From: Mesostigma viride | Taxonomy: Eukaryota; Streptophyta; Mesostigmatophyceae; Mesostigmatales; Mesostigmataceae | Direction: 5' to 3' | NCBI GenBank assembly: GCA_009746045.1 | Contig: RPFO01000370.1 | Coordinates: forward strand, 62,001-126,000 | Length of the DNA: 64,000 nucleotides | Made by a program: the position numbers and the translations under genes | In this document: positions 25,292 to 37,860 of the stretch, piece by piece | Layout of the letters: the number at the start of each line of letters is the position of its first letter | How positions within the stretch are numbered: the first letter of the stretch is position 1 | The notes under the pieces: generated by a model | What the model saw: the letters and a program-made list of their open reading frames with translations, nothing else | What the model was told of the DNA's origin: nothing | Databases searched by the model: none

Positions 25292-26032
25292 ATGCGGTCT
25301 AACTTGAGGAGTGCCTGCCGTCTGTTTCTCCAGGTTGCACTTGATAAGAAACATGCACCGTCGGCGGTTTTCGGGCGGCATATCAGTCGAGAATGCTCGC
25401 ACGTGCCCAGCTCCGAGACTGCCGACGCGCCGTGTTCTGCACAGTCGACGGTGGCCGTATCGTTCAAGCGTCCTGTTCGCCTGCTCTTCCTGAATCGATC
25501 CCATGACAACCTCTGCCAGCGTGCCTACCTGGAAGTATCCCGGCGAAAAGAGCTCGACGTGAGGGTGGAATTGGCCATCAACGACAACCAAATGACCGAG
25601 GCGGTTAAGACCCACGCGCCGGACCTCATCGTTTGTCCCAATTATTCCCGCCGGCTCCCGCCTGGCGTCTGGCAGGCGCCCGTGGAACCGAAGGAGCCCC
25701 CCGCTTCCGCCGAGAGTACCTCAGGACAGTGCGGCATCGAACAGGTGGCATCGGCGAAGGACGGTTCCTCGGCTGCGCCCCCTCGGCATATCCCTTGTGT
25801 AATCCTTCACCCTGGAATACTTGGCGACAGGGGACCGCACGGGCTCGACCGTGCGCTGCAGCGAAATCTCCCCCGCTGGGGGGTCACTGTGATGCAGGCG
25901 GCCGAAGAAATGGGATCGGGCAGTGTCTGGGCCTCCCAGGAGTTTCCGCTGCCCCAGGCGGACCCTGTGTGCCCTATCCCCCTGACCAAGTCCGCCATCA
26001 TGCAGAACCAAGTAACAGACGCGGCTGTTGCG
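25292..26032 (+). CDS. hypX-folD: Exon 1: leader and HypX N-terminal domain
   Basis: 247 codons ending in ...VTDAAVA, donor GCG|GTACAC, phase 0. HypX hallmarks are [40 protein letters not shown] and [13 protein letters not shown], then [15 protein letters not shown]. An insertion of about 45 residues (about 25673-25787) splits the domain. The donor is weak, but joining to exon 2 gives AAVA-ALHEF, as expected from HypX. Confidence 0.85.

Positions 26033-37860: not shown

Follow-up and report, generated by a model that had tools for sequence, protein, structure and literature searches.

HypX is known from prokaryotes, where it makes the CO ligand of [NiFe]-hydrogenases from 10-formyl-THF, the product that FolD forms from methylene-THF. 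The window analysed here, 64,000 bases of the green alga Mesostigma viride (C1409:62001-126000 in the searched genome of 439,911,974 bases and 2,243 contigs), carries a gene that joins both proteins in one chain. What does a HypX with its own FolD do in an alga? The first-pass annotation had read it as a one-protein route from methylene-THF towards CO. The answer depends on whether the fusion is real, on which residues each half has kept, and on what the rest of the genome holds.

Six plus-strand exons (741, 169, 1,273, 3,298, 630 and 333 bases) join into a frame of 6,444 bases, or 2,147 residues, with a sole terminal stop and GT-AG borders at all five introns, which confirms the proposed in-frame join. 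The five motifs said to be restored at the joints (YNGVMAW-DQC, AAVA-ALHEF, SIS-DGNPG, LLRQ-VRNLN and ITK-VQGAD) are all present in the joined translation. By sequence comparison, HypX ends at about residue 1124 and FolD starts at about residue 1138, both within the exon 4 open frame 32023-35388, so no splice has to be assumed for the fusion. There is no N in the 64-kb window, and the shared frame runs open across the linker. The earlier claim that a eukaryotic gene fuses HypX to FolD is therefore supported, with a full-length HypX followed by a complete FolD and the junction inside exon 4. The parts of the gene are as follows.

25292..25453, plus strand: N-terminal extension, residues 1-54, with an amphipathic basic start (hydrophobic moment)
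25454..26032, plus strand: exon 1, residues 55-247, Rossmann subdomain of the HypX N-domain, formyltransferase-like (PF00551, E 6e-7; predicted structure)
27293..27461, plus strand: exon 2, HypX N-domain continued, ALHEF...SIS (joined frame, phmmer)
29439..30711, plus strand: exon 3, remaining HypX N-domain with low-complexity inserts, then the first crotonase strand (open frame 29294-30715)
32040..33228, plus strand: first part of exon 4, HypX crotonase (C-) domain and C-terminal helices, with an insert at 32512-33006 (PF00378, E 1.3e-11)
33229..33267, plus strand: HypX/FolD linker of at most 13 residues, in exon 4 (joined frame)
33268..35337, plus strand: rest of exon 4, FolD start with Y1480 and K1484, inserts at 33373-34224 and 34375-35289 (homology)
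36370..36999, plus strand: exon 5, FolD continued, with Q1843, KDVDG (D1864/D1866), an insert at 36535-36777 and the GRSTVAGLP cofactor loop (PF00763 and PF02882 over cut-off)
37528..37860, plus strand: exon 6, C-terminal part of FolD, stop TGA (PF02882, E 2.7e-31)

Part of the linker may belong to the HypX tail, where the bacterial consensus is TPxxLAxHR. The start of the N-terminal extension has a hydrophobic moment of 0.48, the 97th percentile of the remaining protein, a single acidic residue occurs among its first 30, and the extension is a possible organelle presequence.

The FolD half matches E. coli FolD (1b0a) with E 6e-55 and human MTHFD1 (1a4i) with E 3e-54 in the PDB. It shares with them both enzyme domains (PF02882 passes its cut-off in both exon 5 and exon 6; PF00763 passes in exon 5 and falls short in exon 4 taken by itself) and four active-site residues, Tyr52, Lys56, Gln100 and Asp125 in human numbering, which align in 1a4i with Y1480, K1484, Q1843 and D1866 and which we take to be the catalytic ones. 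It differs from them in its three long low-complexity inserts and its position behind HypX, and it reaches 242 bits where the best NCBIfam FolD model sets its cut-off at 355, which makes it a divergent member. With these residues in place, it most likely works as a methylenetetrahydrofolate dehydrogenase/cyclohydrolase.

With the inserts left out, the HypX half has as its best PDB match the HypX of Aquifex aeolicus (6j1i and relatives). Phmmer gives this match E 2.2e-66, over three stretches that lie between query residues 61 and 607; the highest-ranking ordinary crotonase has E 1.6e-11. The Pfam and NCBIfam matches name only its parts (Formyl_trans_N, ECH_1 and the FolD domains), with no HypX-specific model among those shown. 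Structures were predicted for exon 1 and for the HypX part of exon 4, each with 34 bacterial HypX rows chosen from 80 loci. The exon 1 model (193 residues, pLDDT 84.2) has A. aeolicus HypX as its first Foldseek hit in the PDB, with E 2.4e-12 and a TM-score by query of 0.67. The exon 4 model (403 residues, pLDDT 66.7 with the insert included) finds the same protein first with E 8.4e-12, its TM-score by query of 0.35 being read against a query of which about two fifths is insert. A formyltransferase-like N-domain and a crotonase C-domain thus span the full length, as in the HypX (HoxX) of A. aeolicus and Cupriavidus necator, with which the fusion shares layout and fold; the nearest bacterial rows share 39% identity with it across about 500 aligned positions. 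It differs from these two in the attached FolD, in being eukaryotic and intron-bearing, in a genome without a hydrogenase large subunit match, and in three residues of the active sites, at Asp109, Tyr416 and Glu426.

These residues decide what the HypX half can be expected to do. According to passages of PMC6802093, formyl transfer to CoA is proposed to involve His74, Asp80 and Asp109, with Asp109 as the base, and decarbonylation Tyr416 and Glu426; R. eutropha mutants at either of the latter positions were HypX-minus. Later work, as summarized in part of a review (PMC12134894), has HypX forming formyl-CoA and decarbonylating it. We aligned the fusion with 88 bacterial HypX proteins from 80 loci and 8 plasmid regions (out of 53 plasmid records). 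Wherever a bacterial row has a letter, His74, Asp80 and Asp109 are invariant (81/81 each), as is Glu426 (87/87), and Tyr416 is found in 77 of 87 rows, with nine Thr and one Ser. At the five positions the fusion reads H, D, G, S and G.

Exon 1, plus strand: H173 and D179, equivalent to His74 and Asp80, kept (alignment)
25913-25915, plus strand: G208 in place of Asp109 (alignment)
32365-32367, plus strand: S837 in place of Tyr416 (alignment)
32392-32394, plus strand: G846 in place of Glu426 (alignment)

The exact partner of Glu426 depends on the alignment, the fusion having a gap near 421, and the surrounding stretch of 23 residues holds no Glu or Asp at all. Both the N-domain triad and the C-domain pair that mark a CO-forming HypX are thus broken, the first by Gly at Asp109 and the second by Ser and Gly. 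We also searched 398 genomes of the phylum to which one bacterial locus, L069, belongs: 342 gave some match at E up to 0.001, most of them far weaker than the 22 HypX-like matches at E 7e-60 or better, and all of these 22, one of them from L069's own genome, read H, D, D, Y and E. The Thr variant at position 416 occurs in Bacteroidota HypX (L061, L062, L063, L065, L066, L074 and L076), of which L061 adjoins hyp and hydrogenase genes and L074 adjoins hypD.

The pockets of the fusion are mixed as well. Among the CoA contacts Q15 and N306 are kept, R131 is Q and A392 near the CoA neck is G, and L56 of the THF loop is Y, which makes ligand binding by the HypX half unsure. With Asp109, Tyr416 and Glu426 lost, CO formation by the known mechanism is unlikely, and the HypX half most likely does not produce CO along the HypX route. 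The one-protein route from methylene-THF towards CO is accordingly unlikely at its HypX step, and its FolD step is plausible.

We therefore favour, with a probability of about one half, a single protein in which a possible organelle presequence precedes a remodelled HypX that makes no CO and serves as a binding module, followed by a working FolD. The HypX half would have kept the fold and part of the folate and CoA pockets and given up the formyl-transfer base and both decarbonylation residues. It could then bind folate, and perhaps CoA, so as to hold or sense what the attached FolD makes, in an organelle if the N-terminal extension is a guide, and in an alga that has a separate ordinary FolD and no [NiFe] large subunit match. 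This binding role we propose by exclusion only. Fusions of one-carbon modules are familiar from 10-formyl-THF dehydrogenase (ALDH1L) and the C1-THF synthases; to our knowledge none of these carries a HypX, and the present protein differs from them in having FolD, the maker of the formyl donor, behind HypX.

The pattern of change in the HypX half bears both on this reading and on the idea that the half has acquired a new catalysis fed by FolD, e.g., the formylation or hydrolysis of some other acyl-CoA or folate substrate. We compared 80 near-invariant columns, defined as those where a single residue makes up 97% or more of the 89 other rows (Aquifex among them) and where the fusion has a letter. 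The fusion keeps 56 of them (70%) as against 19 of the 100 most variable positions (19%), two further near-invariant columns being gaps in it, and this suggests that selection held the HypX fold. In a leave-one-out control on those bacterial rows that have over 80 such columns, retention had a minimum of 77% (Nocardia) and a median of 100%. The losses cluster at Aquifex positions 410-432, where 7 of the 11 columns are lost (4 kept), compared with 17 of the other 69 (52 kept; Fisher p 0.014, for a region picked after the data were seen). The pattern resembles the remodelling of an active site within a fold that was kept more than it does an even decay, although the losses are read from one eukaryotic gene and may be peculiar to it. 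A fold under apparent constraint with a remodelled active-site stretch at 413-430 is what a new enzyme might show, and the LPGLGYLTR within that stretch presumably looks more like ordinary crotonases. The replaced segment, however, contains neither Glu nor Asp, and the generic crotonase glutamates, as far as we can judge, also appear to be absent. We regard a new catalysis as rather unlikely, if worth serious consideration.

Weak constraint is the other way to read such a sequence. A quick tree was built from 82 rows, after the removal of eight partial ones (L041, L055, L060, L064, L071, L072, L079 and L080); in it the HypX half sits on a branch of length 3.57, which fits weak constraint as well. 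The HypX half, or the whole gene, could then be decaying and functionless, a view to which the large low-complexity inserts with their unlike codon usage and the presence of another FolD in the genome also lend themselves. The eight inserts comprise 1,173 codons with no in-frame stop, versus 14 and 57 stops in the two other forward frames. By 300 Markov samples, the chance of lacking a stop is at most 0.017 for the four long inserts, and for inserts 1, 2, 4 and 8 the absence is possible by chance (P 0.08 to 0.58). Their GC3 is 0.58 versus 0.79 in the conserved blocks, and their synonymous usage correlates with those blocks at 0.28 in frame, below the other frames (0.41 and 0.53); codon usage by itself does not support the inserts as ordinary coding sequence. 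The insert in the HypX part of exon 4 is mostly predicted at pLDDT below 50. Against decay stand the 2,147 codons without a stop, the five GT-AG introns, the GC3 of 0.79 in the conserved parts and the intact active site of FolD, and we find this reading improbable.

The other FolD genes were found by a search for the FolD C-domain, which gave six genome matches in three genes: the fusion, a separate FolD with introns on C1513, and a bacterial-type FolD without introns on C2011, a contig of 1,488,356 bases whose G+C content is 33.5% in the 3.5 kb surrounding that gene. That contig resembles the Ca. Megaira chromosome of Mesostigma viride NIES-296, given as 1,448,425 bases and 33.9% G+C in the part of PMC9098888 consulted, and is probably a Rickettsiales (Ca. 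Megaira) symbiont remaining in the assembly (loci L089 and L101). HypX itself gave six genome matches, all inside the fusion gene, and thus no second HypX match in the 440 Mb.

If CO were the product after all, FolD would make 10-formyl-THF, from which the HypX half would form formyl-CoA and CO, to be used in signalling or otherwise. As to hydrogenase maturation, the [NiFe]-hydrogenase large subunit (PF00374) has no match in the searched genome, the control search being positive in 5 of 14 genomes. Nor does the earlier premise that algae have [FeFe]-hydrogenases clearly hold here. Fe_hyd_lg_C has four matches only, in one 12 kb stretch of contig C1, which read ASACPG-GWVCYAEK and APCYDKKLEASR, motifs that we take to be Nar1-like; we thus rejected these as HydA, in a search that an intron-split HydA could escape.

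Bacteria show, on the other hand, that HypX can occur outside hydrogenase clusters. In the gene tables of the plasmid regions, which are incomplete, hyp or hydrogenase genes adjoin HypX in five of eight (L081, L083, L084, L086 and L088); L087 is without annotation, and in Nocardia (L082:6995-8668) and Mycetohabitans (L085:4995-6749) the examined flanks hold no annotated hydrogenase gene; the labels of these two HypX genes are "hydrogenase maturation protein" and "enoyl-CoA hydratase-related protein". No hydrogenase or hyp gene was present among the scanned neighbours of HypX at two Kangiellales loci (five of seven frames at L069 and five of eight at L023), and PF00374 matched none of the three genomes of L069, L023 and L073. 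HypX likely has a purpose other than hydrogenase maturation in some bacteria. Both Kangiellales loci (L069:4328-7689 and L023:4193-7659) carry an MHYT gene, at E 1.2e-44 or better, as well as a gene whose V4R match falls below the Pfam cut-off (E 3e-4 and 4.5e-4). MHYT is a proposed diatomic-gas sensor, and a pair for making and sensing CO is possible there.

These orphans and the completeness of both folds in one chain are what speaks for CO formation by the fusion. Yet the orphan proteins of L069, L023, L073, L082 and L085 keep the catalytic set, i.e., the very residues that the fusion has lost, and replacement at either C-domain position was enough to make R. eutropha HypX-minus in the published passages (PMC6802093). 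We hold CO formation by the fusion to be quite improbable.

The quick tree of 82 rows singled out no donor of the HypX half. A bacterial origin of the fusion itself was rejected: a FolD frame was absent from the 80 bacterial HypX loci (flanks of at most 6 kb either way, in many cases shorter; blastp E up to 1e-3, frames of at least 80 residues) and from 22 further HypX loci of 2.4 to 3.8 kb. One open frame of 1,074 residues (L123) proved to be mostly read-through upstream of HypX, with 771 residues within the locus examined, and 174 pattern matches in viral contigs contained no relatives. The titles and abstract starts listed in open-access searches mention neither a eukaryotic HypX nor a HypX-FolD fusion, and the first-pass annotation likewise knew of no described fusion; the passages seen of oomycete and Andalucia papers do not describe one either.

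That two genes or an assembly join mimic a fusion is very improbable, for although the region is rich in repeats, the HypX end and the FolD start share the frame of exon 4 at most 13 residues apart and without an N. The repeats include a 25-base minisatellite of 19 copies in intron 3 (window 30765-31247), a GGGC array in intron 2 (27721-27990) and an 11-base array in intron 5 (37077-37205). Elsewhere in the window are a Copia-type retrotransposon frame (6081-7895, minus strand; Pfam), a second retrotransposon frame (15636-20880, plus strand; Pfam), presumably of Gypsy type, and degenerate ACCC-rich plus-strand repeats at 44573-45796, which accompany a GC skew of -0.43 over 44001-46000. Rfam at gathering scores found nothing in the 64-kb window.

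Taken further, and more tentatively than the favoured reading of a binding module joined to a working FolD, a eukaryote may have taken in HypX, fused it to FolD and lost the CO-making residues, which would have given an early-branching green alga a new folate-CoA device, either a regulator that binds the FolD product or an enzyme of some new formyl or acyl-CoA reaction, perhaps organellar. A full-length HypX that is fused to FolD in a eukaryote with no [NiFe] large subunit match, and that lacks three of the five proposed catalytic residues, would serve as a natural experiment on the residues that CO formation requires and on the new uses open to a HypX fold. The fusion points to a HypX outside hydrogenase maturation, as some bacteria show too.
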